This document shows positions 10,654 to 27,300 of a stretch of DNA of 64,000 nt, one piece after another (the stretch's first letter is position 1; every line of letters begins with the position of its first letter). A program made the translations under genes and the position numbers. The DNA is from Chloroflexaceae bacterium (GTDB taxonomy: Bacteria; Chloroflexota; Chloroflexia; Chloroflexales; Chloroflexaceae): positions 124,001 through 188,000 of the forward strand of contig JANQID010000077.1 in NCBI GenBank assembly GCA_028282325.1, read 5' to 3'. The notes beneath the pieces were generated by a model. It worked only from the letters and a program-made list of their open reading frames with translations. It did not search any database and was not told the DNA's origin.

Positions 10654-10744
10654 GCGTGCGTTGTACATATCCTAAAGGGTATAGCCCTGCACTCTCCAGG
10701 CTGAGATGTAGGAGTTGGGTTTACACAGGATCAGGAGAACAACA

Positions 10745-12469
10745 ATGATGTTCAGACGAATATCCGCAATGCTCGTAGTCGCTCTGCTTGGCATATCAAT
10801 AATAGCTGCTTGCGGCGGCGCCCCCTCCGAAAGCGATGTTGGCGAAACCACCGCCCCTGAAGCTGCCGCAAGTGGTCAGGAAGCGCCAACGGACGCCCCT
10901 GCCGCAGCGCGGGACACAGACGATACGCAAGGACCGCAAACGGCAAGCAAACTCACCATTGGTATCTGGAATACTGCCGGCAATATCACCACCTATACCA
11001 TCGGCAACTCCTGGAACGACTGGGTCTTGTGGCTATCGTTTGACAAACTGGTCGAACCATCGCCCTACGTCAGCGAAGCGGAATACTGGCTGGCCGAGTC
11101 AATTGAGCAGATCAGCGACGATGGGCGTACCTGGGAGATCAAGCTCCGCGACGGGGTCACCTGGCACGACGGCACGCCGTTGACGGCCGAAGATGTCGCC
11201 TTCACCTTTGTCTACTATCGCGAAGGCCCGGCCAATCGCTGGACTCACCACTGCAGCGCCGTTCCGCGTATGGAAGAGGTCGAGGTTATCGATCCACTAA
11301 CGGTGCGGGTTACCTCGGCGAAACCGATGCCCAACTTCGACAAAGTCACCGCAGCCGACCTGCCGATTATTCAAAAAGCTCAGTGGGAGGATGTCGAAGA
11401 ACCGCGCCAGTTCACCGACATTGCAATCGGCACCGGTCCCTACCGCATGGTCGAGTACAAGGCCGACGAGTTCTACCGGTTTGAGGCCAACGAGAACTAC
11501 TTTAAGGGTAAACCCCTGGTCGATGAGTTGACGCTGGTCATGATCAAGGACCCGCAGACGATGTTCACCGCCCTGAAAAGCGGCGAGATCGACGGCGCGG
11601 CGCGCAGCTTACCGCCGGAATTGCTGGCGGAATGGGCCAATGATCCCGATATCAAGATTATGCATGCGCCCACCCTGTGGGGCGTGTGGTTGGACGTTAA
11701 TCTAGGGCGCGAGCCGTTCAATCTGCGTGAGATGCGCCAGGCGGTTTCGGTTGCAGTCAATCCCGACCCGATGCTCGAAAACATTATGCTCAACGAAGGC
11801 CAATCCGGCCTCCAGGGCTGGCCGCATCCCGACTCGCAATGGACCAAGCCCGACCTTGAGCAGCCCTACGATCAGGCCAAAGCGATCGAACTGCTCGATG
11901 AGCTGGGCTATGTGGATAGCGACGGCGATGGGTTGCGCGATACACCTGCTGGCGAGCCGATCGACTGGAATATCAAGGTCGCATCGAACCAACCGCTCTA
12001 TATCCGCGCTGCCGAGATGATTGTCAAACAACTGGCGGAAATTGGACTGCAGAGCCACGTCGAAACGCTCGATCCGGCCGCCTTCAGCAGCCTGTGGACC
12101 AGCGGTGACTACGATTTGCGCGTTATGGAAATTACACCACACGGGATCGCCGACCAGGACATGTTAATCATTCTCTACAAGGGCGATAACAACCGGGCGC
12201 TCGAACCCGACCCTGAGAAGGACGCGATCGTTGCGCGCTGGTTTGAGGCTGCGACGGTCGAAGCGCGCCTGGAAGTGAGCTACGAACTGCAGGAACTGAA
12301 TAACCTCTATCCCAACCGGCGTATGCTCTGGTATCCCGATGGCATCTTCGCCTATCGCTGGCAGGCCTACGACAACTACCAGCCCTCATCCGGCTACGGC
12401 ATCTATCACAAGTACTCGTTCCTGCCCAACGAATCCCGTGGGCTGACCGTTTCGAATGTGGAAGAGTAG
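10745..12469 (+). CDS. Family-5 (Dpp/Opp/Nik type) solute-binding lipoprotein
   Basis: This 574-residue extracytoplasmic binding protein captures peptides, nickel chelates or similar ligands for the ABC importer that follows. The start at 10745 has CAGGAG upstream and gives a clean lipoprotein signal ending IIAACGG, where Cys anchors the lipid. An Ala/Thr/Glu-rich linker leads into the mature domain, with family-5 features such as WEIKLRDGVTWHDGTPLTAEDVAF, AIGTGPYRMVEY and EAIELLDELGY-like segments. A hairpin-bearing 143-base gap separates it from the permease. Nearby nickel genes favour a nickel or metallophore ligand (inference). Confidence 0.93.
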   Translation: MMFRRISAMLVVALLGISIIAACGGAPSESDVGETTAPEAAASGQEAPTDAPAAARDTDDTQGPQTASKLTIGIWNTAGNITTYTIGNSWNDWVLWLSFDKLVEPSPYVSEAEYWLAESIEQISDDGRTWEIKLRDGVTWHDGTPLTAEDVAFTFVYYREGPANRWTHHCSAVPRMEEVEVIDPLTVRVTSAKPMPNFDKVTAADLPIIQKAQWEDVEEPRQFTDIAIGTGPYRMVEYKADEFYRFEANENYFKGKPLVDELTLVMIKDPQTMFTALKSGEIDGAARSLPPELLAEWANDPDIKIMHAPTLWGVWLDVNLGREPFNLREMRQAVSVAVNPDPMLENIMLNEGQSGLQGWPHPDSQWTKPDLEQPYDQAKAIELLDELGYVDSDGDGLRDTPAGEPIDWNIKVASNQPLYIRAAEMIVKQLAEIGLQSHVETLDPAAFSSLWTSGDYDLRVMEITPHGIADQDMLIILYKGDNNRALEPDPEKDAIVARWFEAATVEARLEVSYELQELNNLYPNRRMLWYPDGIFAYRWQAYDNYQPSSGYGIYHKYSFLPNESRGLTVSNVEE

Positions 12470-12612: not shown

Positions 12613-13590
12613 TTGGTGTACCTACGGATTGCCGCCCAGTATGTCCTGGTGCTCATCGTCACACTCTCGATCAACTTCGCGCTACCGCGGATTGCGCCGG
12701 GCAGCCCGCTGCTCTACCTGGTCGGCGAAGATGTGGCAACAATGACCCAAGCCGAACAGGATCAGGTACTGCGCGAGTTCAAGCTGGATCGACCGATAGT
12801 CGAGCAATTTGTCAATTATGCCGTCGGTATCGTGCAAGGTGATCTGGGTGTCTCAGTACGTTATGGGATGCCGGTCTGGGATGTGTTGCTCGATCATCTG
12901 CCCTGGACGCTATTGCTGATGGGTACATCGTTGTTGCTCAGCGCCTCGGCCGGCACGGTGATCGGTGTCTTTGCAGCCTGGAAGCAGGGTGGTAAGCACG
13001 ATATCGGAGCCCTGACGCTGGTACTCTTTCTGGGTTCGATTCCGCCGTTCTGGGTTGCGATGCTGTTGATTACCTTCTTCTCAGCCCAGCTCGGCTGGCT
13101 GCCCTCGTACGGCGCTTATGCCATCGGCGTCGCTTCCGGCACGCCGGAATACTATGTCGAAGTGGTTCGACGCATGATCATGCCCATCTCGGCCCTGGCC
13201 CTAGTCAACACCGGAAACATGTTTCTGACTGCACGCTCATCAATGGCAATGGCCCTGGAAGAAGACTATATCATGCTCGCACACGCCAAAGGCCTGCGCG
13301 AACTGACGGTGGTCTTCAAACATGGCTTTCGCAATGCTTTGCTGCCGATCTACACCAACGTGATGGTCAGTATGGGGCATCTCATCGGCGGAGCTATGGT
13401 CATCGAGACCGTCTTTTCCTATCCCGGGTTGGGCAGCACGATCTATGACAGTGTGCTGGCCCGCGATTATAACTTGTTGCAGGGTGCCTTCTTGCTGGTG
13501 ACAATAAGTGTCCTGGCAGCCAATTTCATCGCCGACATGGGCTACCCCTTGCTTGATCCGCGTGTACGACGACCGGGAGTGTCCGCCTGA
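12613..13590 (+). CDS. ABC permease, DppB/NikB type
   Basis: The 325-residue protein is the first membrane subunit of the family-5 importer. It has the N-terminal signature YVLVLIVTLSINFALPRIAPG, the domain-linker LDRPIVEQFVNYAVGIVQGDLGVS and, near residues 215-240, an ALEEDYIMLAHAKGLRE coupling motif that contacts the ATPase. The coding frame begins TTG-GTG, with AGGGAG about eight bases before; either codon could start translation. Its last base is shared with the ATG of the next gene, so the two are tightly coupled. Confidence 0.92.
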   Translation: MVYLRIAAQYVLVLIVTLSINFALPRIAPGSPLLYLVGEDVATMTQAEQDQVLREFKLDRPIVEQFVNYAVGIVQGDLGVSVRYGMPVWDVLLDHLPWTLLLMGTSLLLSASAGTVIGVFAAWKQGGKHDIGALTLVLFLGSIPPFWVAMLLITFFSAQLGWLPSYGAYAIGVASGTPEYYVEVVRRMIMPISALALVNTGNMFLTARSSMAMALEEDYIMLAHAKGLRELTVVFKHGFRNALLPIYTNVMVSMGHLIGGAMVIETVFSYPGLGSTIYDSVLARDYNLLQGAFLLVTISVLAANFIADMGYPLLDPRVRRPGVSA

Positions 13591-16151
13591 TGGCTCTTGC
13601 AATCAAGCATTCGCTGGCTACCAGCCTGAATACATCGCACGGGCGATTGCGGCTGGTCGGGATCCTGATCCTGACCGTTTTCATTCTGGCCGCTATCTTC
13701 GCACCGCTCACAACGCCCTACGAACCATCGGCACGCGTCTGCCCGTCATTCCAGACACCCAACAGCGAGCACCTGCTCGGCTGCAACGATGTGGGCCACG
13801 ATCTCTTCACCGAGATTGTCTACGGGGCCCGCGTGTCGTTGACGATTGGGGTGGTGGTGGCGATCATCACCACATTGATCGCGACGATCGTCGCCCTCGT
13901 GTCGGGCTTCGTCGGCGGCTGGGTCGACCAGTTCTTCATGCGGATCGTCGATGTGGTGATGGCAATTCCCTTCCTCCCGCTGGTGATTGTGTTAGGGGTG
14001 TTTCTGGGAGCCGGGCTGACGACGCAGGTGCTGGTAATCTCGCTGGTGATGTGGGCCCACCCAGCCCGCGAACTTCGCTCGCAGGTGCTGGCCATTCGCG
14101 AAAGCGGTTATGTCGAGTCCTCACTGGCGATGGGCGCCTCACAGTTCACGGTGATGCTGCGCCACATCCTCCCCGAAATCACACCGCTAATCGTTCCCCA
14201 ATTCGTGCGGGTGGCGCACAACGCTATTCTGATCGAGGCCGCCCTGAGTTTTCTGGGTCTGGGCGATCCGATCCAGAAGAGCTGGGGTGGGATCCTCTTC
14301 TACGCCAACGCCCGCGCTGCGTTTCTCACCGGCGCCTGGAGCTACTGGGTGATGCCGCCGGGGATCTGCATCGCACTGGTTGTGGTTGCCTTCGCTTTCA
14401 TCGGTTATTCATTGGGCGGCAAATCGGGGCAGATCTATTATCCGTTCGGCTCGTTTACGCTGAAACGCCGGCCATCGATCGACACAGGCGGTGCTAATGG
14501 TCGGCGCTTGCAGATTGAGCAGTTGACTACACTGTACTCCTCGTCCAACGAGACGATCAAGGCCGTCGATGAAGTTAATCTGGGGTTGCACGATTGCGAG
14601 ATCGTCGGGATCGTCGGCGAGTCGGGATCGGGCAAATCGACAGTGGCGATGTCGGTGCTGGGATTGCTCAAATATCCGGCAGCGATCGCCAGCGGGCGGA
14701 TCTATCTGGGGCAGGTTGACCTGCTCGATCTCGACAAGCCCAGCCTGCAACAGGTGCGTGGCAAACGACTGGCCTTTATTCCGCAGAGCGCGATGAATAC
14801 GCTCAACCCGGTTATGACCATCTGCGACCAGGTGCAGGAGGCGATTCTGCAGCAGCGCGACCTGAACCGCGACGCAGCCGAGGAACGCGCCCTAAAGCTG
14901 CTGAGCATGGTTGAACTACCGGACGAGCGGGCTCAGGCCTATCCCCACGAACTCTCGGGCGGGATGCGCCAGCGCGTGGTCACGGCGATTGCTCTGGCGA
15001 ACGAGCCAGAGGTGATCATCGCCGACGAGCCGACCACTGGTCTGGACGTGCTGGTGCAGAAAGAGATTATCGGGCTGCTGATCGACCTACAACGACGGCT
15101 GGGAATCAGTGTTATGTTCATCACTCACGATCTGCCGCTAGTATCCAGTTTTGCCGACCGGATGGCGGTGATGTATCAGGGACAGATTGTCGATATCGAC
15201 ACCCCCCAGCAACTGGCCCGCTCCGCCGATCACGCACATACCCGGGATCTGTTCGAGAACTTCCCCCGGCTCCAGGCTCCCAAGCGCTGGCAACGCTCCG
15301 ACGCCAACGGCAACACCATGCGCGAGTTGGCGCCGCTTCTGCAGCTGACCAATGTCTCCAAGACTTTCCACTCGCGCCGGCGCCTGGACTTCAAGCCGGT
15401 CGCTCCGATCCGGGCGGTCAACCAGGTCTCGTTCAAAATCTTCGCTGGCGAAGTTGTGGGCCTGATCGGCGGCAGCGGTTCAGGCAAGACGACGCTGGCC
15501 CGGCTAATGATGGGCCTGATCGACGTGGACGAAGGGGAAATCAGTTTCGATAGGCGTGAGATGCACAATCTGGTGCGAGCGGAACGGCGGGCTATGCTGA
15601 AAGACGTGCATATGGTCTTTCAGGATCCGTACCAATCGATGCGCAACGGGATGCGCGTGCGTGACATCGTGGCCGAGCCGTTGCGCATCCACGGCCTGCG
15701 CGATGCAGCCGAGATCGAGCAGCGTGTCACCACGGCATTGGGCGAGGTGCAGTTGCCGCAATCGCGCCAGTTCCTGGCCCGCCGAATCTCGGAGCTGTCG
15801 GGTGGGCAACGCCAACGAGTCGCCTTTGCTCGCGCTGTGGTAACCAACCCACGTCTGATCATCGCCGACGAACCGACCTCGATGCTCGATGTGTCACTGC
15901 GGATGGGTTTGCTACAACTAATGGAGTCGTTACGAGCCAATCACAACGTCGGCTATCTCTTCATTACCCATGATCTGGCACTGGCGCGCCATTTCTGCGA
16001 TCGGCTGGTTGTCTTGCAGCACGGAACAGTGGTGGAGTCGGGTCGCACCGAGCAAGTCATCCATCAGCCGGCTCACCCCTACACTCGCGCTCTGGTTAAT
16101 GCCGTCGTGGATCCGGCGTTCACTGAGCCAGAATTGGCTCAGCAAGCATGA
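13590..16151 (+). CDS. Fused DppC permease + DppD ATPase + DppF ATPase
   Basis: Three subunits that are normally separate form one 853-residue polypeptide. Residues 1 to about 290 are a DppC-type permease with GMRV-class loop MGASQFTVMLRHILPEI. Next is ATPase 1 with GESGSGKST (about 343), LSGGMRQRV (about 454) and VIIADEPTTGLD. ATPase 2 has GGSGSGKTT (about 627), LSGGQRQRV (about 736) and LIIADEPTSMLD, then a Dpp-type C-terminal tail (HPYTRALVNAV). All ATPase motifs are intact in both halves, so the fusion looks functional. It fixes a 1:1:1 stoichiometry and leaves only DppB as a separate membrane subunit. No stop or frameshift occurs at either junction. Confidence 0.93.
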   Translation: MALAIKHSLATSLNTSHGRLRLVGILILTVFILAAIFAPLTTPYEPSARVCPSFQTPNSEHLLGCNDVGHDLFTEIVYGARVSLTIGVVVAIITTLIATIVALVSGFVGGWVDQFFMRIVDVVMAIPFLPLVIVLGVFLGAGLTTQVLVISLVMWAHPARELRSQVLAIRESGYVESSLAMGASQFTVMLRHILPEITPLIVPQFVRVAHNAILIEAALSFLGLGDPIQKSWGGILFYANARAAFLTGAWSYWVMPPGICIALVVVAFAFIGYSLGGKSGQIYYPFGSFTLKRRPSIDTGGANGRRLQIEQLTTLYSSSNETIKAVDEVNLGLHDCEIVGIVGESGSGKSTVAMSVLGLLKYPAAIASGRIYLGQVDLLDLDKPSLQQVRGKRLAFIPQSAMNTLNPVMTICDQVQEAILQQRDLNRDAAEERALKLLSMVELPDERAQAYPHELSGGMRQRVVTAIALANEPEVIIADEPTTGLDVLVQKEIIGLLIDLQRRLGISVMFITHDLPLVSSFADRMAVMYQGQIVDIDTPQQLARSADHAHTRDLFENFPRLQAPKRWQRSDANGNTMRELAPLLQLTNVSKTFHSRRRLDFKPVAPIRAVNQVSFKIFAGEVVGLIGGSGSGKTTLARLMMGLIDVDEGEISFDRREMHNLVRAERRAMLKDVHMVFQDPYQSMRNGMRVRDIVAEPLRIHGLRDAAEIEQRVTTALGEVQLPQSRQFLARRISELSGGQRQRVAFARAVVTNPRLIIADEPTSMLDVSLRMGLLQLMESLRANHNVGYLFITHDLALARHFCDRLVVLQHGTVVESGRTEQVIHQPAHPYTRALVNAVVDPAFTEPELAQQA

Positions 16152-16166: not shown

Positions 16167-16212
16167 ATATGTGGTGCGGGGGGCGAAGCCGCGCCGCGCC
16201 ACAACACACATA
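16167..16212 (+). promoter_or_regulatory. G/C-rich intergenic hairpin after the ABC fusion gene
   Basis: The segment ATATGTGGTGCGG...GGC pairs with GCCGCGCCGCGCCACAACACACAT around a GAA loop, with some bulges. It resembles the hairpin after the binding-protein gene (both have GGCRAAGCCGC at the apex). A partial terminator or mRNA-stabilising role is likely. Confidence 0.5.
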
Positions 16213-16279: not shown

Positions 16280-16954
16280 ATGCAAGTCTCTATCGAACGT
16301 GCAGGACTGGATACAGCCATACGAGGCGTGCTAGGCTGCGTGGTCGCCCCGTTGTTTGAAGAGGTGATGCACGCCTATCGGGAGTTGGACGATGCCGCAC
16401 TGGTGGATTACAGCACCTTGCTGGAGATCGCGGAAAAAACGAGCCAACAGACCCCATTCCACATGTTGCTGGAGTTTGCCTCCTACGGTCAGGACGACCC
16501 GCATCGGTTCACCATCACCCACAACGCCGTCATGCGGCTCTTCTGCACAAAGTACCACTTCGATTTTATAGCGAAGAATCTGCTCAATCCAATGCTGGTG
16601 CGCGATACCGCCAGCTTCCTGGTCAATCATATGCTCTTGCCTATGCAACTGAGCGAGTACGGCGGCCAATTGCGGGGAGAATACCGCATTGGCGGTCACA
16701 CGATGCATGTCTTTCCCCTGATCGTCGCACCCGATCTGGAACTCGCAAGCGATGCCGTCTACGGCGTGCACATGGGTTCTATTATTACGGCTTTGACCGA
16801 TGCGCAAATACGTATGATCGAAGCCCAGCTCGCGCTCAGCGCAGAATTCGGCTTCCTCGCAAAACACGTGAGCGAAGTCGATTTCACCGACTATCAGCAT
16901 TTCGGCAATTTTCATCAACGCATTGCGGAACGGCATCACAAGGTGTTCGGCTAA
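16280..16954 (+). CDS. Unknown 224-aa protein, paralog A
   Basis: I do not recognise this family. The product is soluble, with no signal peptide or membrane segment. Blocks shared with the next gene are TPFHMLLEFA..GQDDPHRFTITHN (TPVHFLRDF..LQDDPSNFTITHN in B), a central NPMLVRDTASFLVNHMLLP, YGVHMGSIITALTDAQIRMIE and HVSEVDFTDYQHFG. The repeated conserved His and Asp residues (ITHN, GVHMG, KHV..VDF.D.QH) would suit metal binding. GGAG precedes the ATG. It lies between a family-5 ABC importer and a nickel transporter plus CooC, so a role in nickel handling or a cofactor pathway is a reasonable guess only. Confidence 0.7.
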   Translation: MQVSIERAGLDTAIRGVLGCVVAPLFEEVMHAYRELDDAALVDYSTLLEIAEKTSQQTPFHMLLEFASYGQDDPHRFTITHNAVMRLFCTKYHFDFIAKNLLNPMLVRDTASFLVNHMLLPMQLSEYGGQLRGEYRIGGHTMHVFPLIVAPDLELASDAVYGVHMGSIITALTDAQIRMIEAQLALSAEFGFLAKHVSEVDFTDYQHFGNFHQRIAERHHKVFG

Positions 16955-16998
16955 GCGCCTCACCGAACAAGAGCCAAACAATAGGAGCAAACTAAACA

Positions 16999-17673
16999 AT
17001 GGACATCACCATTGAAACGCCTGGATTGCAGACATTGCTGCACAGCATGCTGAGTTGCCGTTGTCCGGTCGACGAGCCGACCGAACGGGCGTTGTTCAAG
17101 GTCTACTTCTCAGTACGCGACCGCGATACAGTCGACTTCAACGAGATTGTACAGATCGCCGATGAGAATCCGGAGCCAACGCCGGTGCATTTTCTGCGCG
17201 ACTTCTGCGTGTATTTGCAGGATGATCCCAGCAACTTCACGATTACGCACAACGATGTGCTGCGCTACTTCAGTACGACCTACCATCTCAACCGGATGAA
17301 GGCGCTCAACCCCTTGTTGGTTCGCGAACCAGCGGCGTACCTCTTCAGCCATCTGCTGGTTCCGGTACGTGTTTCGGTTGTGGACGGCAAGGCTGAAGCC
17401 ATCTGTAAGATCAACGACTTTTCAATTCGCTCCAAGAATATCTTTATGTCGTCGGAGTTTCCACCGATTGTAGAAGCCTACTATGGCCTGCATATGGGCG
17501 CCATCGTGACCACGCTGAGCAAAGCCCAGGCCCGCATGATCGAAGGCCATCTGACAATATTCGACGAGATTCCGTTTCTAGCCCGCCATGTCACGCACGT
17601 GGATTTTTGCGATTTCCAGCACTATGGAGATTATCGCGCGGATGTCGCTGCACGCTATGCACGTCATTTCTAG
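16999..17673 (+). CDS. Unknown 224-aa protein, paralog B
   Basis: It is the same length as the preceding gene and clearly paralogous, with the shared blocks FTITHNDVLRYF, NPLLVREPAAYLFSHLLVP, YGLHMGAIVTTLSKAQARMIEGHL and ARHVTHVDFCDFQHYGDY. The pair starts with similar TIETPGLQT/SIERAGLDT strands, then diverges to a Cys pair (SCRCPVD) here versus GCVVAP in A. AGGAG precedes the ATG, 44 bases after paralog A. Tandem duplication with retained His/Asp positions suggests a heterodimer or two specialised copies. Function unknown. Confidence 0.7.
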   Translation: MDITIETPGLQTLLHSMLSCRCPVDEPTERALFKVYFSVRDRDTVDFNEIVQIADENPEPTPVHFLRDFCVYLQDDPSNFTITHNDVLRYFSTTYHLNRMKALNPLLVREPAAYLFSHLLVPVRVSVVDGKAEAICKINDFSIRSKNIFMSSEFPPIVEAYYGLHMGAIVTTLSKAQARMIEGHLTIFDEIPFLARHVTHVDFCDFQHYGDYRADVAARYARHF

Positions 17674-17725
17674 TACGACTGCAGCGCAGGGGTCAGAGAT
17701 CAGGAGTCAGCGAGAATCAGGCATC

Positions 17726-19495
17726 ATGACGCGACCGATTGCGGCAATCGTTGTGGCGATTATGCTGTTGCTGGTCGGCGCGCCTGTACCCGGCGTGTCG
17801 GCCCACCCGCTGGATGAGTTCTCGGTGAAGACACGGATTATGTTCCAACCGGACGGGGTCAAGTTAAAGCTAGAGCTTGACCCTGGCATTCTGGTTGCAA
17901 CACTATTGCTAGAAGATCTAGATGCGGATGGCGATGAGTGGATTAGCGCAGCGGAGGAAATGGCATTTGCCCAGATTGTGGCCCAGGAGTTGACCGTACG
18001 ACTGGATGATCAGGATGTGGTGCTGCAAATCGTAAATATTGAGGTGGATCCACTCACGGATCTGATCACTGGTGTGGGGACGATCACGCTGGTCTACTAC
18101 GTCCCTGCCGAGCATGCGGCGGCGAGCGCACGCGAGCAGCACACCCTCTTCTATGAGAATCGCTTCTATGATGGATTGGCTCTGTATAGCCTGCATCTTG
18201 AGACCGACCCGGACGGCGGGGTTGTGATCGATGCCGCCGAACGCGACGAGATCACCCAGGCCCTGGTCGAGGTCGTGTACAGCGTCGATCCTGCTACCGC
18301 TATCGCCAAGGACGCAACAGATGCCGATCCGCCTCAACCCGCAGCGTTCTGGCAAGACCTCGATCTGACAGCAATCCCGGCGGTAGACAGTCTGATCGAA
18401 CGACTGCGTGGTGGCATCCTGTCCCCGGGCATCGTGCTCCTGTTGTTTGGTCTGGCGATGGTCGCCGGTGCATTTCATGCGTTTACGCCGGGCCACGGCA
18501 AGACCCTGGTTGCGGCCTTCCTGATCGCCAACCGGGGCACTCTCTGGCACGCGATCGCCCTGGGATTGCTGGTGACGTTAACCCACTCGGCCAGTATTTA
18601 TCTTCTCGGCGGGCTGGTGTTGGCAGCGACCGAGTTCTTTCTGCCGGGACGGGTGATCCCGATCATTGAGATCGCGGCCGGGATATTGGTGATTGGGCTG
18701 GGGATCTGGATGCTGTTCACCAGAATCTACGGCGGGGTGGCCGACCACGCACATGTACTACCGAACCTGGCAATTCTGGAACATCGCAATATGAATGTAT
18801 TGCTAGACGGCAACGCCGCCGATGCCGTCGATTTGCTTATCACTGCCAGCATTAGGCCTGATGTGCAGACCGCTATGGAGCGAGCCGGCGCCGACAATAT
18901 CAATATCTGCTCGCTGGGCTGCGAGACCCACGATCTGCTGCCGACAATCAAGCCCGAGCGCCTGAATCTGGCAACGGTCAAGCATGCCTTGAAAACCGGA
19001 GCGGTCGACGGGATGGTTGTGAGTGCTGGCAAACGCCAGACGCTCGTGAATCGGATGGCCCAGCGTATGGGCCGTTCCCCGGCTATGGATGAGCCGGGTA
19101 CGCTGGACGAAGCGGCGGCGCTGCTAATCGAAGCGACCCAGCGCTTCACCCGCCGTGGCCCGGTGCATATCCCGCAGACCGAGCTATCGTGGCGCAGTCT
19201 GGCATCGATGGGGCTGGCGGGCGGTATGGTGCCATGCCCAGATGCGCTGGCGATTTTACTGATCGCCCTGAGCATGGGCCAGCTTCTGCTGGGCCTGAGC
19301 GTCGTATTCTTCTTCAGCATCGGGCTGGCGCTGACCTTGATCGCCGTCGGCCTGCTGATAGTATCGTCCGGGCGTATGTTTGCGCAGTCGCCGTTCTTGG
19401 ATCGGCTTTCCGTCATCACACCCTATGCCGCCTCGATTTTTATCACATCTATCGGATTCTGGATGGTCGCTCGTGTACTAGGGAGTATCTCATGA
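17726..19495 (+). CDS. NicO/RcnA-like Ni/Co transporter with inserted CODH-like domain
   Basis: The 589-residue product starts with a signal peptide ending near VSAHPLDEF, then an extracytoplasmic domain with an EF-hand-like DLDADGDEWISAAEE, as in NicO-family proteins. The membrane core holds the family motif HAFTPGHGKTLVAAFL and, after a large insertion, MGLAGGMVPCPDALAILLIAL. The insertion (about residues 350-490) replaces the usual His-rich loop. It resembles the central Rossmann-like domain of CooS carbon monoxide dehydrogenase: NMNVLLDGNAADAVDLLI, NINICSLGCETHDLLP, TGAVDGMVV and RRGPVHIP line up with CooS segments around the ICCTGNE cysteine and the late VHIP strand. Other CooS cluster cysteines are absent, so catalysis is unlikely. 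The ATG overlaps CooC as ATGA. A start at 17588 is possible but would overlap paralog B. Confidence 0.8.
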   Translation: MTRPIAAIVVAIMLLLVGAPVPGVSAHPLDEFSVKTRIMFQPDGVKLKLELDPGILVATLLLEDLDADGDEWISAAEEMAFAQIVAQELTVRLDDQDVVLQIVNIEVDPLTDLITGVGTITLVYYVPAEHAAASAREQHTLFYENRFYDGLALYSLHLETDPDGGVVIDAAERDEITQALVEVVYSVDPATAIAKDATDADPPQPAAFWQDLDLTAIPAVDSLIERLRGGILSPGIVLLLFGLAMVAGAFHAFTPGHGKTLVAAFLIANRGTLWHAIALGLLVTLTHSASIYLLGGLVLAATEFFLPGRVIPIIEIAAGILVIGLGIWMLFTRIYGGVADHAHVLPNLAILEHRNMNVLLDGNAADAVDLLITASIRPDVQTAMERAGADNINICSLGCETHDLLPTIKPERLNLATVKHALKTGAVDGMVVSAGKRQTLVNRMAQRMGRSPAMDEPGTLDEAAALLIEATQRFTRRGPVHIPQTELSWRSLASMGLAGGMVPCPDALAILLIALSMGQLLLGLSVVFFFSIGLALTLIAVGLLIVSSGRMFAQSPFLDRLSVITPYAASIFITSIGFWMVARVLGSIS

Positions 19496-20286
19496 CCAAA
19501 ATAGCAGTCAGCGGCAAGGGCGGCGTGGGCAAAACCACCTTTTCAGCCTTGCTGGCCTATATTTTGACGGAAAACGGACAACAGGTTTACGCCATCGACG
19601 CCGATCCCAGTCCGACTCTGGCTGAGACGCTAGGCTTCCCGGCGCAAACTGCGGCGCAGATCCGTCCAATCATTGAAATGAAGGAGCTGATCGCCGAACG
19701 CACCGGAGCCAAACCAGGAGAATACGGCAGCTATTTCAAGCTTAACCCGCGCGTAGACGATATTCCCGCGCAGTTTTCGGCAACCTACCGAAATATCCGT
19801 TTGCTGGAGATGGGAGCCGTCAAGGGCGCCGGGAAGGGCTGTGCTTGTCCAGAAAACGCTATGCTCAAAGCGTTGACCAGCCATCTTTTGTTGCAAGAGC
19901 AAGAGACAGTCATTCTGGATATGGTCGCTGGCGCCGAGCACCTTGGGCGCGGAACCGCGCAGGCCGTCGACGCGATGGTTATTGTGGTCGAGCGTGGCTC
20001 GCGCAGCCTGAAAACCGCACGCACGATTCTGGCAATGGCTGCCGATCTGGGCATCACGAATATGTGGATCGTGGGCAACAAGATCCGCAATCCCGAAGAC
20101 CAGGACTTTATCGCCAATGCACTGCCGCAGGTGAAGATCGCCGGCTGGCTTCCTTTCTCCAACCGGGTGATCGATGCCGAGCGCAGCGGACTGTCCGTCT
20201 ATGACGCCGACCCTGAGTTTGTCGCCCAGGGTCGCAAAATTGTCGGGGTAATTCTGTCAAACGGAGGCAGCATATGGAAAACATAA
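19492..20286 (+). CDS. cooC: CooC-type nickel-insertion ATPase
   Basis: CooC is a MinD-type ATPase that loads nickel into carbon monoxide dehydrogenase. This 264-residue protein has the deviant P-loop GKGGVGKTTF at residues 6-15 (signature Lys included) and the CooC-specific C117-A-C119 pair in GKGCACPENAM, which holds a metal at the dimer interface. It also has VILDMVAGAEHLGRGTA, the family switch region. The ATG overlaps the stop of the NicO gene, so the two are translated together. No CODH catalytic gene is present in the window. The only CODH-like sequence is the domain inside the adjacent transporter, which makes a physical or functional link between the two attractive. Confidence 0.9.
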   Translation: MTKIAVSGKGGVGKTTFSALLAYILTENGQQVYAIDADPSPTLAETLGFPAQTAAQIRPIIEMKELIAERTGAKPGEYGSYFKLNPRVDDIPAQFSATYRNIRLLEMGAVKGAGKGCACPENAMLKALTSHLLLQEQETVILDMVAGAEHLGRGTAQAVDAMVIVVERGSRSLKTARTILAMAADLGITNMWIVGNKIRNPEDQDFIANALPQVKIAGWLPFSNRVIDAERSGLSVYDADPEFVAQGRKIVGVILSNGGSIWKT

Positions 20287-20909
20287 AGGCCACAACGCTC
20301 CTTATTATATCTGGCAGTCGAGGAGCGCCGTTCCTTCAGCATCCGGTCAGCGCCGGACGGGTCGAGACCATTGATATGTATGACCTGGATAAGGCAGCGT
20401 TGCGCAACTACAAAGCATTACTGATCCCAATGCATAGCGACCAGCGGCATCTAGTCAAGCATCGAGCCCGGCTCGAAGCGTTCTTAAGCGGTGGAGGGAT
20501 CATCATCTTCAGCGGCCATGTGGCGTATCCCTTTTTGCCTGAACTACGACCTTTTATTGCGTCTGACTATCGCAGTGTAAACGACCTGTTTATCTATCGC
20601 GCTGCTGAGCATCCGATCTGGCGGGATGTCCTTGAGGAAGATCTGACCTTTCGGAAGGGCGTCGCCGGCTTCTACGGACGTGGTTATAATCCGCCGCCGC
20701 CCAATGCGACAATTATCAACACCCTTGGGCCGAAACGCTTGCCGATCGATTATATGTACGTCCGCTCCAGCGGGGGCACGGTACTAGTTCACTCCGGCAA
20801 CGATTTCTGGAACTTCGCGCTCTTTCCTAACGACATCACTAGCGCCGCACGGATGCCAGGACAACTGCTGGAATGGATTGAAACGGATATGGTGGGAGAC
20901 GCAGCATGA
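20274..20909 (+). CDS. ThuA-like (class I amidotransferase-fold) protein A
   Basis: The 211-residue product has the alternating strand/helix pattern of a flavodoxin-like or ThuA-type amidotransferase fold: TLLIISGSRG, KALLIPMHSD, LEAFLSGGGIIIFSGHVAYPFLP and GGTVLVHSGNDFWNF. The usual nucleophilic Cys at the elbow after the GGG-IIIF strand is replaced (FSGHV), so amidase activity is unlikely. His and aromatic residues are frequent. It overlaps the end of cooC by 13 bases and the next paralog by 4, marking it as part of the CooC operon. Function unknown. Confidence 0.6.
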   Translation: MENIKATTLLIISGSRGAPFLQHPVSAGRVETIDMYDLDKAALRNYKALLIPMHSDQRHLVKHRARLEAFLSGGGIIIFSGHVAYPFLPELRPFIASDYRSVNDLFIYRAAEHPIWRDVLEEDLTFRKGVAGFYGRGYNPPPPNATIINTLGPKRLPIDYMYVRSSGGTVLVHSGNDFWNFALFPNDITSAARMPGQLLEWIETDMVGDAA

Positions 20910-21577
20910 GTCGTGTGGACAGGATCGCCATTCTTGATGGCGGAACCTACTATCACCATTTCGCGATCAACACGCCGGAGTATCGCCCCTATTTTGATCA
21001 GATCATCTATGCACCGGAGCTCGACGAGACGGACCTGAACCCGTTCAACGCCCTGATTGTCATCGATCGGCTCAATCCGGATCTGCTGCGCAAGCACGCG
21101 GCACAACTGATCGATTTCGCCAATCAAGGCAAGACGCTGGTCGTGTTCGGCGAGGTGGAGGCGCACACCTGGCTGCCCGGCGCACGTTGGGTTCAGCGCC
21201 CGACCAATTTCTGGTGGTGGCTGGAGCCGGGTGCCGACCCCGGGCTGCGCATCGTCGCGCCAGAGCATAGCCTGTTTCGCCACCTCACGCTACAGGATGC
21301 GACCTGGCACTATCACGGCCTGTTTCAGCCGCCTCTTGGCGCCTCTAGACTGATCGTGCTGCACGAGGAAGATCTGATGGACAGCCCTGCGGACGGTGAT
21401 CGCTACGACGCCATCCTGTACGAAGACCGCGTCTCGACGGGTGGTCGGCTGCTGGTGACCTGCCTGGATCCCTTCTACCATCACGGCAGCAGCTTTATGC
21501 CGGCCACCACGCGCTTCATCGCAAAGTTCCTGGAGTGGCTCCAGGTCGATCTGGCACAAGGCGCCGACAGAGAGTGA
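20906..21577 (+). CDS. ThuA-like protein B, paralog of the preceding gene
   Basis: The 223-residue protein shares the fold and order of elements with its neighbour: NALIVIDRLNPDLLRKHAAQL, a LVVFGEVEAHTWLPG elbow without Cys, then RLLVTCLDPFYHHGSSF. It begins DRIAILDGGTYYHHF, with paired His residues. Its ATG overlaps the preceding stop. Side-by-side paralogs next to CooC echo the 224-aa paralog pair upstream and suggest paired subunits. No catalytic assignment is justified. Confidence 0.6.
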   Translation: MSRVDRIAILDGGTYYHHFAINTPEYRPYFDQIIYAPELDETDLNPFNALIVIDRLNPDLLRKHAAQLIDFANQGKTLVVFGEVEAHTWLPGARWVQRPTNFWWWLEPGADPGLRIVAPEHSLFRHLTLQDATWHYHGLFQPPLGASRLIVLHEEDLMDSPADGDRYDAILYEDRVSTGGRLLVTCLDPFYHHGSSFMPATTRFIAKFLEWLQVDLAQGADRE

Positions 21578-21599: not shown

Positions 21600-22889
21600 A
21601 TGAGTTCGGATATTCTAAAAGGCCCTGCACAATGGCGCAAGATGGTACTGCTCGGCGGTCTGTACATCACCCAGTTTCTCGGGCTGGGATTCATCATTAC
21701 CGCTATTCCCGCGATTATGCGCGCATCGGGCGCCGGCCTCGACAGCATCGCCTGGATTTACGCGCTCGGGCTGATCTGGGCGATTAAATTCCTGTGGGCG
21801 CCGTTGATCGACCGCTACGGATCAAAACGGCATGGGCATTATCGCGGCTGGCTGATCCTCCTGCAGAGCCTGATGATCATCTCGCTGGTGTGCGCCGCCT
21901 TCCTCGACATCGGCAGCCAGATGCCGATCCTCGCCGTCTTTCTCGTGTTTGCATCGTTCTTCTCGGCCACCCAGGACATTGCCACCGACGCACTCGCGGT
22001 GACGATCCTGGCGCCGGAAGAACGGGGCCTGGGCAACAGCATTCAGACCGCAGGCGGGCTTATCGGCAACATCATCGGCGGCGGACTGGTGCTGATCGCC
22101 TATCAGTGGATTGGCTGGTCGGCCAGCCTGCTCATCCTCGCCGCCGGCACCGCCATTCCGCTGTTCACTATCTTGCGCCACAAGGAGCAACCCGCACCGG
22201 CCGACCAGCGCGCCGAGAAGGTGGGCATGAAGGATCTATATCGTTTTTTTGGACGCCCGGGCATGGGCCGCTGGGTGCCTGTCTTGCTGGTGTACGGCCT
22301 GGCAATCTCGCTGGCCTACGCCCTGATTAACCCCATGCTCGTCGACCTCGGGTGGTCGCTCGACCGGATCGGATTCGCGGTCAACATCGTCGGTATGCTG
22401 GCCTCGATTGCAGGCGCCGGGCTGGCCGGTTTTGTCGTCCAACGCCTCGGGCGCAAGCCGGCCATGCTCTGGACCAGCCTGCTCGTGACCGTCTCTATTA
22501 TCGGGTTATATTTGCCGGGGAGCGGCATCGAAAACACTGCCGTCATCTACGGCACGATTATGCTCATGCTGCTTGCCTACGGCGCAAATACAACTATTCT
22601 CGCCACCATGATGATGGACAAGAGCGACCCATCCTCGGCGGGCACCGATTACACCCTGCAATACTCGCTCTTTTCGATCCTCGCCTTCGTCGCCAGTGGC
22701 GGCGCATTGGTATTGGCTGAGGCGATCGGTTATACCGGCGTGTTAACGGCTGCGATTGCCGCCGGTTTGATCACCATAGTAGTTGTGCTGTTCTACAACG
22801 ACTTCGCGCCGGTGGTCTACACAAAAACCGACCAGATGGATGCCCCGGCAGTGGCGCCGGTGCTGATGAGCCAGGCTGCTGAAGATTGA
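21600..22889 (+). CDS. MFS transporter, AmpG/RhtX-YbtX-like
   Basis: This is a 429-residue, roughly 12-helix inner-membrane carrier. The early GLYITQFLGLGFIITAIPAIMR, the WAIKFLWAPLIDRYGSKRHGHYRGW loop between helices 2 and 3 and SATQDIATDALAV are hallmarks of the AmpG/RhtX group. That group moves muropeptides, siderophores (RhtX, FptX) or acts with YbtPQ (YbtX). It is followed by two YbtP/YbtQ-like genes, the same three-part grouping seen in yersiniabactin loci, so a metallophore role is favoured. AAGGAGA precedes the ATG. The gene follows the ThuA-like pair by 22 bases in the same direction. Confidence 0.85.
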   Translation: MSSDILKGPAQWRKMVLLGGLYITQFLGLGFIITAIPAIMRASGAGLDSIAWIYALGLIWAIKFLWAPLIDRYGSKRHGHYRGWLILLQSLMIISLVCAAFLDIGSQMPILAVFLVFASFFSATQDIATDALAVTILAPEERGLGNSIQTAGGLIGNIIGGGLVLIAYQWIGWSASLLILAAGTAIPLFTILRHKEQPAPADQRAEKVGMKDLYRFFGRPGMGRWVPVLLVYGLAISLAYALINPMLVDLGWSLDRIGFAVNIVGMLASIAGAGLAGFVVQRLGRKPAMLWTSLLVTVSIIGLYLPGSGIENTAVIYGTIMLMLLAYGANTTILATMMMDKSDPSSAGTDYTLQYSLFSILAFVASGGALVLAEAIGYTGVLTAAIAAGLITIVVVLFYNDFAPVVYTKTDQMDAPAVAPVLMSQAAED

Positions 22890-22932: not shown

Positions 22933-24759
22933 ATGAGTGACACAACAAAAAAGACCCAGGAGCTATCCCTGTGGGAAATCATCAAGCCCGTAAACCGCCA
23001 CATTTATGCGGCAATGACCATATCAGCGATCAGCGCAGTGACCTGGATTGTCGCTCTGGTTTTGATTCGCCCCGTTGTGAGCGAACTGATGGCCCAAGCG
23101 CCCAACATTACTCGCCTGTGGCAATTTCTGGGTATCAGTATTGGCTTGATTCTGGTGGGGGTTGTGCTGAGTGTGTACTCCTTCAACTGGTCGCACAAAG
23201 GCGCATTTAAGTTGGAAGAGATTTTACGCACCCAATTGACCGCCCACCTTGCCAAAGTTCCGCTGGGTTATGTGATTACCACCGGCTCCGGGGCGCTGAA
23301 AAAGATACTGATGGATGACGTGCGCAGCCTGCACGCTTTTGTCGCCGACAGCACACCGTTGCTGGCGCGCGGCTACACCACCCCACTGGCAGCGCTGGTC
23401 TTGATGTTTGTCGTTGACTGGCGCATGGCGCTGATCTCGCTGGCCGTTTTCCCGATCGGGATGATCGGTATGCAAATTGCCTTCAAGGATTTTGCCGAAG
23501 GACGGGCGCAGTACGATGCCGCCAATGAACGCATCAACCGCACCATCATTGAATACGTGCAGGGGATGCAGGTGGTGCGTACGTTTGACGACGGCACCTC
23601 TTCCTTCAAGCGGTATCGGGATGCGCTGGAGCATGCCACCGAGTCACAACGAGCCTGGTCGGAAAAATCCCAGACAGGCGCTTTTATCGCCCGTACCCTT
23701 TTTGCGGCGCTGCCTACATTGGCAATTGTCACCCCGATCGGTATCTGGATGGTACAACGCGGGTGGTTGGATGTGCCGACGCTGCTCCTTTTTATTTTCC
23801 TGGCTCCAACAGTGGCTGAATCGGTTGTGCCACTCGTGTGGTTAAGCCAGCTTATTCAGATGTCCAAGGCCGGTGCCAAGCGAATTGGCCGGTTGCTTGC
23901 GGAATCGATTTTGCCGGAGCCAGAAACGTCCGTACGGTCGCGGAATGGCAGCGTGGCCTTTGAAAACGTGACATTCACCTACGCCGACCGCGAAGCCCCC
24001 GCTCTGCAAGATGTCAGTCTGTATATGGCCGCAGGAACCGTCACTGCGTTGGTCGGGCCATCTGGGGCGGGTAAGAGCACCATTGCCCAACTCATTCCCC
24101 GCTTTTGGGATGTGGATGCAGGCGCTGTGAAAGTTGGCGACATAGATGTGCGCCATATGAGCAGCGACGACCTGATGCAGCAGGTCAGCTTTGTCTTCCA
24201 GAATCCGTTTTTGCTGCACGACACCATCCGCGAGAACATCCGGCTAGGCAAACCGGATGCCACCGATGCGGAAATAGAAGCGGCGGCCAGAGCAGCCCAG
24301 TCCCACGACTTCATCCTCAATGAACTGCCCGACGGGTATGAGACAAAAGCCGGAGATCGGGGCACGCGCCTTTCCGGCGGGCAGCGCCAGCGCATTACCA
24401 TTGCCCGTGCAATTTTGCAGAATTGCCCGATTGTGGTTTTGGATGAGGCGACGGCGTTCGCTGATCCAGAAAATGAGGCCAAAATCCACGCGGCTATTGC
24501 CAATTTGACAGCGGGAAAAACGCTGATTGTGGTGGCGCACCGGCTGTCAACCATTCGCGACGCGCACCAGATCGTCGTGCTGGACAAAGGCAAGGTGGCT
24601 GAGGTTGGCACGCACGATGAACTGGTCGCGACCAATGGGGTTTACAGGGGGCTGTGGTTGAAATTTGAAGAGGCGCAGTCGTGGGGGTTACGCCGTACCG
24701 GTGAGGCTTCCGATGCTGTAGGTGCAACCGTTCCGGGCTATGAGCAGGCAGAAGGGTGA
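22933..24759 (+). CDS. ABC transporter, YbtP/IrtA-like half (pair A, subunit 1)
   Basis: The 608-residue half-transporter has an N-terminal six-helix type IV (exporter-fold) membrane domain and a C-terminal ATPase: Walker A GPSGAGKST near 375, LSGGQRQRITIARAIL near 480 and VVLDEATAFADPENE near 500. The ATAFADPENE ending, rather than TSALD, is characteristic of the YbtP/IrtA side of siderophore-uptake heterodimers, which import despite their exporter fold. AGGAGA precedes the ATG. The partner gene follows 12 bases on. It is close in sequence to the gene at 33807, so pairs A and C are duplicates. Confidence 0.88.
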   Translation: MSDTTKKTQELSLWEIIKPVNRHIYAAMTISAISAVTWIVALVLIRPVVSELMAQAPNITRLWQFLGISIGLILVGVVLSVYSFNWSHKGAFKLEEILRTQLTAHLAKVPLGYVITTGSGALKKILMDDVRSLHAFVADSTPLLARGYTTPLAALVLMFVVDWRMALISLAVFPIGMIGMQIAFKDFAEGRAQYDAANERINRTIIEYVQGMQVVRTFDDGTSSFKRYRDALEHATESQRAWSEKSQTGAFIARTLFAALPTLAIVTPIGIWMVQRGWLDVPTLLLFIFLAPTVAESVVPLVWLSQLIQMSKAGAKRIGRLLAESILPEPETSVRSRNGSVAFENVTFTYADREAPALQDVSLYMAAGTVTALVGPSGAGKSTIAQLIPRFWDVDAGAVKVGDIDVRHMSSDDLMQQVSFVFQNPFLLHDTIRENIRLGKPDATDAEIEAAARAAQSHDFILNELPDGYETKAGDRGTRLSGGQRQRITIARAILQNCPIVVLDEATAFADPENEAKIHAAIANLTAGKTLIVVAHRLSTIRDAHQIVVLDKGKVAEVGTHDELVATNGVYRGLWLKFEEAQSWGLRRTGEASDAVGATVPGYEQAEG

Positions 24760-24771
24760 AGAGCAACCGTC

Positions 24772-26517
24772 ATGATTTCCACATACCGACGAATGATCCG
24801 GGCGGCGGGTTCGCAAGCCCATATGTTGAAGCGAGCTGTCAGGCTCGTGATTCTCAGCGCCATTGTGCAGGGTATCGCCTATGGAATGCTGTTCCCCCTG
24901 TTTCGATCGCTGCTGACACCGGATGGGGAAGGTCTGTTGCTTTACGCTGGTATTCTGATCGGTTTCATCGTGCTTGATGGCATCTTGCGCCTGATTATTT
25001 TGAAAGATGATTGGGAAACGCAGATGCTGACGGGGCATGAGGCGCGCCTCAGACTAGGGGAACAACTGCGCCGGATGCCACTGGAATATCTGAACTCGCG
25101 CCAGGCGGGTGACCTCAACGTGGTTCTCAGTGGCGATGTGAATGATCTGGTCATGATTATGGGCGGATTGTACAACATGGTGCTGTATACGATTATCGCC
25201 CCTGTAACCACGATTGTGATTACGCTGTTTGTGGATTGGCGATTGGCATTGATGTTGATCGTGCTTTTCCCTCTGGCAACGCCTTTTTATCAACGAATTC
25301 GAAATATTGCCGCGCGGGAAAACCGGGTGACTTCGGCGGCTACAGCGCTGGTGACGGCGAATTTGATTGAGTATGCACAAGGATTGGGGGTTTTGCGAGC
25401 CACGCGTCAGGTTGGCACGCAGTCGGTGCGTTTGCAAAACTCGCTCGCGCATCTGCGCCGGCAGCAGACAATGGCAGCGAATTGGAATATTGCGCCCGGC
25501 ATCATGATCGCTACGGTGGTGCAGATGGGAATTCTGGTGGTAACGGCAATTGGCGTGGTCTGGATATTGGGCGGCGGTTTGAGTGTTGCCATAATGCTGG
25601 CGCTGCTGGCGATTATGGTGCGCTTTGCCGAGCCGCTCTCCCATTTTGCCAATATAGCATCCATGTTCGACTTCATGGAAGCGGCGCTGGAGCGCATCGA
25701 TGTCTTGTCATCTGTTGAGCCACTTCCGGTTAAGACCCCGCACGGGCAAATCGAGTCCTTTGACATCACGTTTGACCGGGTTGACTTTGTGTATGAAGCC
25801 GGCGTTGCCGAAATGAATGGCGATCGGGTATTGCGCGACATTTCGTTTACGTTGCCGGAGCGCAGCCTTACCGCGCTGGTAGGACCTTCGGGAAGCGGCA
25901 AAACGACCATTACCAAGCTCATTACGCGCTATGCCGATCCGCAGAAAGGGAGCGTCAACATTGGCGGCGTCGATATTCGCAGCGTGACGCCGGAAACGTT
26001 GATGCACCATATTTCGGTGGTGTTCCAGGATGTCTACCTGTTTGACGATTCGATTCGCAACAACATTCGCATGGCAAAGCCAGACGCAACCGATGCGGAA
26101 GTGGAAGCGGCGGCGGAAGCGGCCAACTGCCATGAATTTATCACTCGACTGCCGCAGGGGTATGACACAACAGTGGGCGAGATTGGCGGCTCGTTGTCGG
26201 GCGGCGAACGTCAGCGAATTTCGATTGCCCGCGCCATCCTGAAGGATGCACCGATTGTGCTGCTGGATGAACCAACCTCCGCGCTCGATACGGAGAGTGA
26301 GGTTGCCGTCCAGCGGGCGATTGACAAGCTGGTCGAAAACAAGACGGTGGTGGTCATCGCCCATCGCCTGTCTACGGTGGTGGCTGCGGACATGATTTTG
26401 GTGTTGGAAGACGGACGCATTGTGGAACAAGGCAAGCATGATGCGCTGTTGAGTGGAAACGGCCGTTATGCCGCCATGTGGAACGCCCAACAGCAAGCCC
26501 GTCGTTGGAAAGTGTGA
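24772..26517 (+). CDS. ABC transporter, YbtQ/IrtB-like half (pair A, subunit 2)
   Basis: The 581-residue partner of the preceding half has a membrane domain with LVILSAIVQGIAYGMLFPLF and VDWRLALMLIVLFPLATP. Its ATPase carries GPSGSGKTT near 371, LSGGERQRISIARAIL near 475 and IVLLDEPTSALDTESE near 495. This DEPTSALDTESE form is the IrtB/YbtQ-side signature, complementary to the first subunit. The C-terminus MWNAQQQARRWKV is shared with the gene ending at 37363. A metal-chelate substrate is inferred from family and from the MFS neighbour. Confidence 0.88.
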   Translation: MISTYRRMIRAAGSQAHMLKRAVRLVILSAIVQGIAYGMLFPLFRSLLTPDGEGLLLYAGILIGFIVLDGILRLIILKDDWETQMLTGHEARLRLGEQLRRMPLEYLNSRQAGDLNVVLSGDVNDLVMIMGGLYNMVLYTIIAPVTTIVITLFVDWRLALMLIVLFPLATPFYQRIRNIAARENRVTSAATALVTANLIEYAQGLGVLRATRQVGTQSVRLQNSLAHLRRQQTMAANWNIAPGIMIATVVQMGILVVTAIGVVWILGGGLSVAIMLALLAIMVRFAEPLSHFANIASMFDFMEAALERIDVLSSVEPLPVKTPHGQIESFDITFDRVDFVYEAGVAEMNGDRVLRDISFTLPERSLTALVGPSGSGKTTITKLITRYADPQKGSVNIGGVDIRSVTPETLMHHISVVFQDVYLFDDSIRNNIRMAKPDATDAEVEAAAEAANCHEFITRLPQGYDTTVGEIGGSLSGGERQRISIARAILKDAPIVLLDEPTSALDTESEVAVQRAIDKLVENKTVVVIAHRLSTVVAADMILVLEDGRIVEQGKHDALLSGNGRYAAMWNAQQQARRWKV

Positions 26518-26547
26518 AATTTACAGATATGAGCAATTAGGAGAAAT

Positions 26548-27300
26548 GTGTTGCAACAGGAAACCACGATTAAAACCGAACCTGCAATGAAGAAAGAAGA
26601 TCAGCTGATTGAGCCGCGCGTGCTCGACCCACGCACACAGATTTTGGTGCTGATTCTCATTAGCGTCATCTTTTTTTCTTTGAGTGATTTGCTGCTCGAA
26701 GTGGCATGCATGGTCATGATCGGCCTGATCTTGATCTGGCAGGGGATGTGGAAAACTGCGTTGAAATACTGGGCATTTTACGCTGGAACGATGCTGTTTT
26801 TTTTATTCTCGCTTGAATATCCCAATATGCTGATTTCAATGATTGGCATTCTGTGCGTTGCATTGAGAAAGGTTATCCCCAGTTTCATGTTTGCCACGGC
26901 CATTATTGAAAAAACCAAGGTGGGGAAGCTCGTTTCAGCCTTGCAAGAAATCCGCCTCCCCAAAGGTCTGATTATTGCCTTTGCGGTGACAATTCGATTT
27001 TTTCCCACTTTGAAAGAGGAATATTGGCTGGTGATCAATGCGATGCGCATGCGCGGCATTCGATTTTCATTGAAAAACCTGATCCTTCGCCCCATGTTGG
27101 TGATGGAAAGCATTCTTATTCCAATCATGCTGCGCATGTCTGTGATTGCAGATGAGCTGGCGGTTTCATCGGTGACGCGGGGGATCGATTCAAACAGAAA
27201 ACGGACTTCTTACTACAAAAACCGGTTCATTTGGATGGATGGCGTGGTGATTCTTATCTTCTCGGTTCTCGCTATTTTGGCAATTATTACTGGAAACTAA
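26548..27300 (+). CDS. ecfT: ECF transporter transmembrane subunit EcfT
   Basis: The 250-residue membrane protein couples the S component to the ATPase in an energy-coupling-factor importer. It has about five to six hydrophobic segments and the coupling-helix motif INAMRMRGIRF near residues 165-175, the A-R-G signature of EcfT. The start is GTG at 26548 with AGGAGA six bases before; an ATG at 26587 is the alternative. From here to about 29466 the DNA is visibly richer in A/T than the flanks, suggesting separate ancestry. The stop is two bases before the ATPase start. Confidence 0.88.
   Translation: MLQQETTIKTEPAMKKEDQLIEPRVLDPRTQILVLILISVIFFSLSDLLLEVACMVMIGLILIWQGMWKTALKYWAFYAGTMLFFLFSLEYPNMLISMIGILCVALRKVIPSFMFATAIIEKTKVGKLVSALQEIRLPKGLIIAFAVTIRFFPTLKEEYWLVINAMRMRGIRFSLKNLILRPMLVMESILIPIMLRMSVIADELAVSSVTRGIDSNRKRTSYYKNRFIWMDGVVILIFSVLAILAIITGN

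Follow-up and report, generated by a model that had tools for sequence, protein, structure and literature searches.

A NicO permease with a carbon monoxide dehydrogenase domain in its loop, encoded beside CooC in a Chloroflexaceae genome without CODH

The 64,000-nucleotide stretch of Chloroflexaceae DNA analysed here (contig JANQID010000077.1 of assembly GCA_028282325.1; hereafter the window) encodes a NicO/RcnA-type permease in which the middle domain of carbon monoxide dehydrogenase (CODH) occupies the slot of the His-rich inner loop. Its gene overlaps the following gene, cooC, which encodes a nickel-insertion ATPase, in a genome that has no CODH gene. Both belong to a compact run of six genes downstream of a Nik-type importer, together with two orphan paralogs of 224 amino acids and two ThuA-like proteins. 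We propose, at a probability of roughly 0.45, that the locus is the nickel-handling branch of a metal/metallophore-import island, and that CooC docks on the permease through the CODH-derived domain, loading or gating it.

The original prediction, made from the sequence of the window, had described six consecutive, overlapping or nearly abutting genes as a candidate undescribed nickel/cofactor module. The six open reading frames are indeed all present on the plus strand. NicO, CooC, ThuA1 and ThuA2 form a chain of overlapping genes, the start of ThuA1 overlapping CooC by 13 bases and ThuA2 overlapping ThuA1 by 4, and the remaining gaps are 44 and 52 bases:

16280..16954, plus strand: P224a, orphan 224-aa protein
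16999..17673, plus strand: P224b, paralog of P224a, 224 aa
17726..19495, plus strand: NicO/RcnA-type nickel-cobalt permease (chimera), 589 aa
18743..19186, plus strand: CODH middle (Rossmann) domain insert, aa 340-487 of the 589-aa NicO protein, homology core ~aa 347-480
19492..20286, plus strand: CooC, nickel-insertion P-loop ATPase, assigned by motifs and a sequence match in the structure database
20274..20909, plus strand: ThuA1, first protein of an importer-associated pair resembling glutamine amidotransferases (GATases)
20906..21577, plus strand: ThuA2, second protein of the pair, class-I GATase/ThuA fold

The predicted NicO-CODH chimera, the CooC protein, the family-5 importer directly upstream and the absence of a CODH catalytic gene were likewise borne out, as described below; the reading of the six genes as a single module was not.

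Anatomy of the chimeric permease

The mechanical reading frame of the permease spans 17588-19495 and begins inside P224b. The ATG at 17726 is more plausibly the start, since it yields a signal peptide followed by HPLDEF, an opening common to other NicO proteins. An extracytoplasmic N-terminal domain and about 6 likely transmembrane (TM) helices follow. The Pfam profile of NicO (PF03824) is passed at 45.4 bits against a cut-off of 27.7 and matches in two stretches, between which the NCBIfam model of CODH is found. The best NCBIfam model for the NicO part is that of the nickel/cobalt efflux transporter PRK10019/RcnA, which scores 112 of the 195 bits set as its cut-off.

The insert matches CODH at E 3e-6 in NCBIfam and at E 1e-6 in the PDB, where the 6 sequences matching it at E < 0.01 are CODHs without exception. 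Alignment with a Chloroflexota CODH covers residues 8-146 of the 148 at 27% identity (E 2e-9), starting at the CODH sequence NLGVLKEDEVN and ending at the IP motif past the middle domain. By these alignments the insert appears to represent about one whole structural domain of CODH, the middle domain of ~140 residues. It is in frame and shows no sign of recent acquisition or misassembly, because its GC content at third codon positions (0.69, against 0.69 and 0.71 in the flanks) and its overall GC content equal those of its surroundings. Three positions in the alignment are those that we take to be His261, Cys333 and Cys295 of the C-cluster in CODH-II of C. hydrogenoformans. In the insert HGH reads DGN and VDVQC reads VSAGK, while one Cys of ICC is kept (LGC). 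The insert has apparently lost at least two C-cluster ligand positions, which makes it a degenerate middle domain; 6 His residues are left in it.

The point of insertion was located by comparison with other members of the family Chloroflexaceae. NicO matches better than E 1e-10 occur in 6 of 41 same-family genomes, including the host, and the five relatives were aligned with the chimera. The TM regions on either side of the insert align with all five, placing it between TM3 and TM4, where the relatives carry short, mostly His-rich loops such as GGHHHHHGAEGHHHHHGAEGH and GGHHHHHGAEGHHHHHGAEGHTHEP. The chimera shares with the NicO/RcnA family (PF03824, PRK10019) its motifs, the extracytoplasmic N-terminal domain and the split at the inner loop, with stretches 31-47% identical in same-family genomes, and differs in that the His-rich inner loop of the RcnA type is missing and the CODH domain stands in its slot. 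The loop of RcnA is predicted to be cytosolic and may chelate nickel (PMC11247825). Since it follows three TM helices and a signal peptide that is cleaved off, the CODH-derived loop would also be cytosolic to judge from hydropathy, in the same compartment as CooC.

Using the insert to look for another chimera in 748 genomes (400 Chloroflexota and 348 of the Romboutsia phylum) returned only weak matches with E no better than 4e-8. The open frames that hold them are 630-706 aa long. The three from Chloroflexota are CODHs by alignment, and the two others were taken as CODHs from the length of the frame. In the host genome the insert finds only itself, and a literature search found no report of a NicO-CODH fusion. 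The chimera is known from one genome among everything searched.

CooC in a genome without CODH

The mechanical reading frame of cooC starts at 19189, and the start at 19492 lies in an ATGA that also holds the NicO stop. The encoded protein matches the CooC structure 3kje over its full length (residues 3-244, E 7e-50). The motifs by which CooC is defined, including the CxC through which the two subunits of the dimer bind metal (PMC6006190), are intact, with the deviant Walker A motif GKGGVGKTT at residue 8 and CxC at residues 117/119. On sequence, the assignment to CooC is secure.

The best CooC of the Romboutsia genome is 48% identical to that of the window, and one from Acetoanaerobium 51%. 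The Romboutsia gene directly follows the CODH gene acsA in a Wood-Ljungdahl cluster, and the window therefore has the same order of CODH sequence and then CooC as the acetogen pair (AcsA/CooS with CooC), although it keeps a single CODH domain, without the C-cluster ligand set, within a membrane protein. No CODH gene accompanies it: there is no PF03063 (Prismane/CODH) match in the window or in the 4.6-Mb host genome, which is 99.98% complete, and a full-length Ni-CODH with its N- and C-terminal domains is absent from the genome.

CooC acts on CODH through ATP hydrolysis and in one case carries Ni (PMC6006190). It is known from CODH operons (PMC13056359), and its presence without CODH is therefore unexpected; a literature search found no report of such a case. 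The genome contains two [NiFe] hydrogenase clusters, one with a small subunit, cytochrome b and a protease, the other with NADH-binding subunits, HypF and HypD. The protein is accepted as CooC by its sequence and, because the genome has no CODH, its client in this host is left to the proposal discussed below.

The upstream importer and its plasmid relative

The importer directly upstream of the six genes comprises three genes:

10715..12469, plus strand: family-5 (NikA/CntA-like) substrate-binding lipoprotein, by profile and sequence matches
12613..13590, plus strand: NikB/DppB-type permease, by sequence comparison
13590..16151, plus strand: fused NikC-NikD-NikE, 853 aa, permease and two ATPase domains

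Its nearest relative is found in a Paracoccaceae plasmid cluster (L013), whose NikA-type substrate-binding protein is 64% identical to that of the window; NikB is 62% identical to its L013 counterpart and 37% to that of Paenibacillus (L016), and the fused NikCDE 51% to L013. The window system resembles the metal-chelate importers NikABCDE/CntABCDF in that its binding protein and fused permease-ATPases score with the NikA, NikD and NikE models. The fused protein passes the models of NikD (TIGR02770, 361.9 against 318.7 bits) and NikE (TIGR02769, 372.6 against 332.55 bits), both being whole-protein scores summed over two ATPase domains. It differs from these importers in combining NikC, NikD and NikE in a single polypeptide, and its binding protein falls short of the NikA model TIGR02294 (127 of 393 bits) and of the CntA equivalog cut-off, which makes the assignment of a cargo a putative one.

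The L013 cluster encodes, in order, the substrate-binding protein, NikB, fused NikCDE, a HupE/UreJ nickel permease, ThuA1, ThuA2 and an FmdE-like protein. The slot of HupE/UreJ is filled in the window by the NicO-CODH protein and CooC with the 224-aa pair. Because two different nickel permease families occupy the same slot, the two clusters, as one case, argue for nickel (or cobalt) as a probable cargo of this importer subtype. Neither HupE/UreJ nor NicO permeases were found in the other ThuA loci examined.

The importer and the six genes are separated by a 131-base spacer that folds at z -2.05. It holds a strong stem-loop at 16169-16203, between the fused NikCDE gene and P224a, which is a possible transcript boundary.

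An importer-associated ThuA1-ThuA2 pair

A scan of 84,980 species genomes revealed at least 300 stretches encoding ThuA2. The best 80 of 300 by score, which are not a random sample, were kept and joined by 7 plasmid loci, and the neighbours within 5 kb were recorded for these 87 loci. The two best relatives of ThuA2 come from metagenome-assembled genomes of Chloroflexales, and relatives of ThuA1 occur on 27 plasmids. In 86 of the 87 loci the two genes share a strand, with ThuA1 first. The pair is accompanied by a FecBCD importer in 47/87 loci, by a Nik importer in 19/87 and by an Ssu-type importer in 11/87; the ten remaining loci include short contigs and more distant Nik importers. An FmdE-like protein is encoded in 43/87 loci, whereas CooC, NicO and either 224-aa protein are found in none of the 87. 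The window pair has the order of this set, ThuA1-ThuA2-(FmdE-like), and differs in having no FmdE-like partner and in standing beside CooC and NicO, as no other examined pair does. The six genes are accordingly not one module, the ThuA-like family occurring widely without CooC or NicO.

ThuA1 and ThuA2 are distant paralogs (hhalign 98%), and the window ThuA2 is 43-59% identical to 52 others. The structural model of ThuA2 (pLDDT 91) resembles the ThuA-like structures 1t0b (Z 12.3, root-mean-square deviation 3.5 over 189 residues) and 4jqs (Z 12.5), and GATase structures at Z 12-14. Its invariant residues form WHxHG, DPxxHxG, FMP and NxWWW. No alignment column has Cys in more than half of the 53 ThuA2 sequences. 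Despite the GATase-like fold no nucleophilic Cys is conserved, which suggests that ThuA2 lacks the chemistry of an amidotransferase; its genes accompany importers that take up metal chelates or comparable solutes. No Pfam family matches ThuA2, and ThuA1 matches only DUF4159, below the cut-off. The ThuA-like identity that had been predicted holds at the level of the fold for ThuA2, with no Pfam match to accompany it. Both pairs proved to be paralogous as predicted, while the ThuA pair, said to be unrecognised, belongs to a widespread set.

The FmdE-like third partner, seen in L014:9235-9786, L085:8773-9333 and about 45 more ThuA loci, is a protein of 170-187 aa in which one His (H37) is invariant and a GPG.RD motif is present; the one in L014 stays below the PF02663 cut-off, at 19.9 of 22.9 bits. 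A literature search found no published description of the set or of FmdE with ThuA. The set is apparently a widespread, undescribed companion of metal-chelate importers.

Several of the loci show variations. Three ThuA1-ThuA2 pairs lie in tandem in Paenibacillus agricola (L058:5635-10609), and the two proteins are fused into one of 436 aa on a 22.7-kb conjugative Labrenzia plasmid (L017:7932-9242). In Romboutsia (L097:5092-7541), two nitrogenase-component-1-like genes (PF00148) and a FecBCD importer lie beside the pair. A flavin-reductase-like gene (L059:8783-9586) and genes for FMN reductase and an FMNH2-dependent monooxygenase (L014:12363-16526) are found near other pairs; that they go with the import of aminopolycarboxylate-type metal chelates is only a guess.

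The 224-residue paralogs

P224a and P224b are 38% identical over 224 residues each. Searches of Pfam, NCBIfam, the PDB, plasmids and viral contigs found no relative, nor did searches of ~1,190 genomes (400 Chloroflexota, 41 of the same family, 398 of the Romboutsia phylum and 349 of the Bradyrhizobium phylum). A scan of the species collection with two peptide patterns, which distant relatives would escape, also found none. One match at E 5e-4 was rejected, being a 49-residue stretch with internal stops. The AlphaFold2 model of P224a, built from two sequences, is unusable (pLDDT 48). In profile comparison the pair does not resemble the FmdE-like proteins (hhalign probability 0.5) or the ThuA-like ones (0.4). 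Conservation in the pair does not favour His over other residues (P 0.24), and for this reason no metal site is claimed. A possible role of the two proteins is that of an accessory to the NicO-CooC unit.

The surrounding metal-uptake island

Profile searches show the left two thirds of the window to be a metal-uptake island, whose further features include:

71-3826: SsuA/NMT1-type ATP-binding cassette (ABC) system, left part of the island
4413-9558: flavodoxin, radical SAM protein (only weak model matches) and DUF3793 protein within this interval, with two DtxR-type regulators
7508-8191 and 8746-9558: the two DtxR-type regulators, with FeoA domains
10303-10653, plus strand: small NifX/NafY-like (Nitro_FeMo-Co) protein, just upstream of the Nik-type importer
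21600..22889, plus strand: major facilitator superfamily (MFS) transporter, nearest to the RhtX/FptX siderophore-importer and AmpG models, below cut-off

The first system includes a 623-aa protein (71-1942, plus strand) with a tandem pair of NMT1/SsuA-like binding domains, and has its own permease and ATPase. The MFS gene starts 22 bases past ThuA2. After this RhtX-like protein, at 22933-37363 on the plus strand, three pairs of ABC half-transporters surround an energy-coupling factor system with two MptD-type S components. The stretch resembles Ybt-type metallophore import, and no biosynthesis genes were seen. The minus-strand gene at 41055-43979, next to a FecCD permease, encodes a 974-aa protein that matches Peripla_BP_2 in three stretches and is apparently a triplicated FecB-type binding protein. 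A scan of the locus with a guessed palindrome gave no DtxR-type site, and a promoter scan gave a result at chance level.

Discussion

Nickel handling by the locus is well supported by its combination of a NikA-type importer, NicO and CooC, and is further backed by the L013 importer, with a nickel permease between its fused ABC gene and ThuA1. In the proposed mechanism, the importer would bring in nickel or a nickel chelate, and ThuA1-ThuA2, on the importer side, would probably handle or sense the imported metal-chelate. NicO would move nickel across the membrane, in a direction that we infer. The CODH-derived domain would serve as a docking platform for CooC at the cytosolic face of the permease; CooC, holding Ni at the CxC site of its dimer and driven by ATP, would bind this platform and exchange nickel with the permease pore, or would alternatively gate the permease by an ATP-driven conformational change. 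The nickel might then reach the hydrogenases by the general Hyp route. The model for these two actions is the pair of roles proposed for CooC on CODH, taking or carrying nickel and ATP-driven action (PMC6006190).

Docking is suggested by the near-complete CODH middle domain in the slot of the His-rich loop, by the overlap of cooC with the nicO stop and by the intact CooC motifs. SlyD-NiuD of H. pylori (PMC7840056) is a precedent for direct action of a metallochaperone on a transporter of nickel; it is alike in pairing a cytosolic nickel chaperone with a transporter, and differs in that the proteins are unrelated and no CODH domain is involved. Four observations weigh against the proposal. The chimera comes from one genome, hence the putative CooC interface has no conservation record; the CODH match of the insert is weak over its second half; RcnA-type NicO proteins export; and the two DtxR-type regulators, the flavodoxin and the several siderophore-type importers of the island point also to iron.

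The last two of these observations are the core of the main alternative, which we consider unlikely, if less so than the others. The island would import iron or other metals by promiscuous chelate importers, an RcnA-type NicO would export the surplus nickel or cobalt that accompanies them, and the CODH domain and CooC would act as sensors of nickel in the cytosol and switch the exporter open or closed. RcnA is the best model for the NicO part, and the regulators are of the DtxR-FeoA type; the RcnA score, however, stays below its cut-off, and the recurrence of a NikA-type importer with a nickel permease in L013 fits acquisition.

A purely historical origin is less probable again. A transferred CODH-CooC pair might have decayed, leaving a CODH fragment in the NicO loop and a CooC that is idle or a general Ni-binding ATPase, with no functional link between them. 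The lost C-cluster ligands and the missing CODH gene agree with such decay, but the insert keeps the reading frame, is truncated at neither end, sits exactly at the loop slot and has a normal codon composition, and both the CooC motifs and the tight gene overlap have been kept.

It is improbable that the nickel site lies in the insert itself, as a buffer or filter that binds the metal by the remaining ICC Cys and its own His in place of the His-rich loop, while CooC loads another client such as the 224-aa pair. The loop it replaces is believed to bind nickel in RcnA (PMC11247825), and one Cys and 6 His remain; yet the insert has lost two of the C-cluster ligand positions and has few His residues, and a CODH domain beside CooC would be left unexplained. 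Least credible is a single machine of six genes in which the 224-aa and ThuA-like heterodimers would join CooC in building a nickel cofactor not yet described, for although the operon is tight and both pairs are paralogous, the six genes include no biosynthetic enzyme, ThuA2 has no conserved amidotransferase Cys and the ThuA-like pair occurs without the other partners. Of the predicted role in nickel delivery or metal-cofactor assembly, nickel handling stands, while a new cofactor-assembly pathway has no positive evidence.

The docking of CooC on the permease, if correct, bears on two open questions: by what route a membrane transporter can hand nickel to a chaperone with no release of the metal in between, and what portion of CODH is recognised by CooC. 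A slightly more tentative reading is that recruitment of the CODH middle domain for docking gave CooC a second, non-CODH client, with the orphan 224-aa pair as an additional part of the unit. With an isolated, ligand-poor CODH middle domain on the permease and CooC intact beside it, the locus offers a natural minimal construct. Binding of CooC to the loop domain would narrow its docking site on CODH to one domain and make the hand-over from transporter to chaperone testable.

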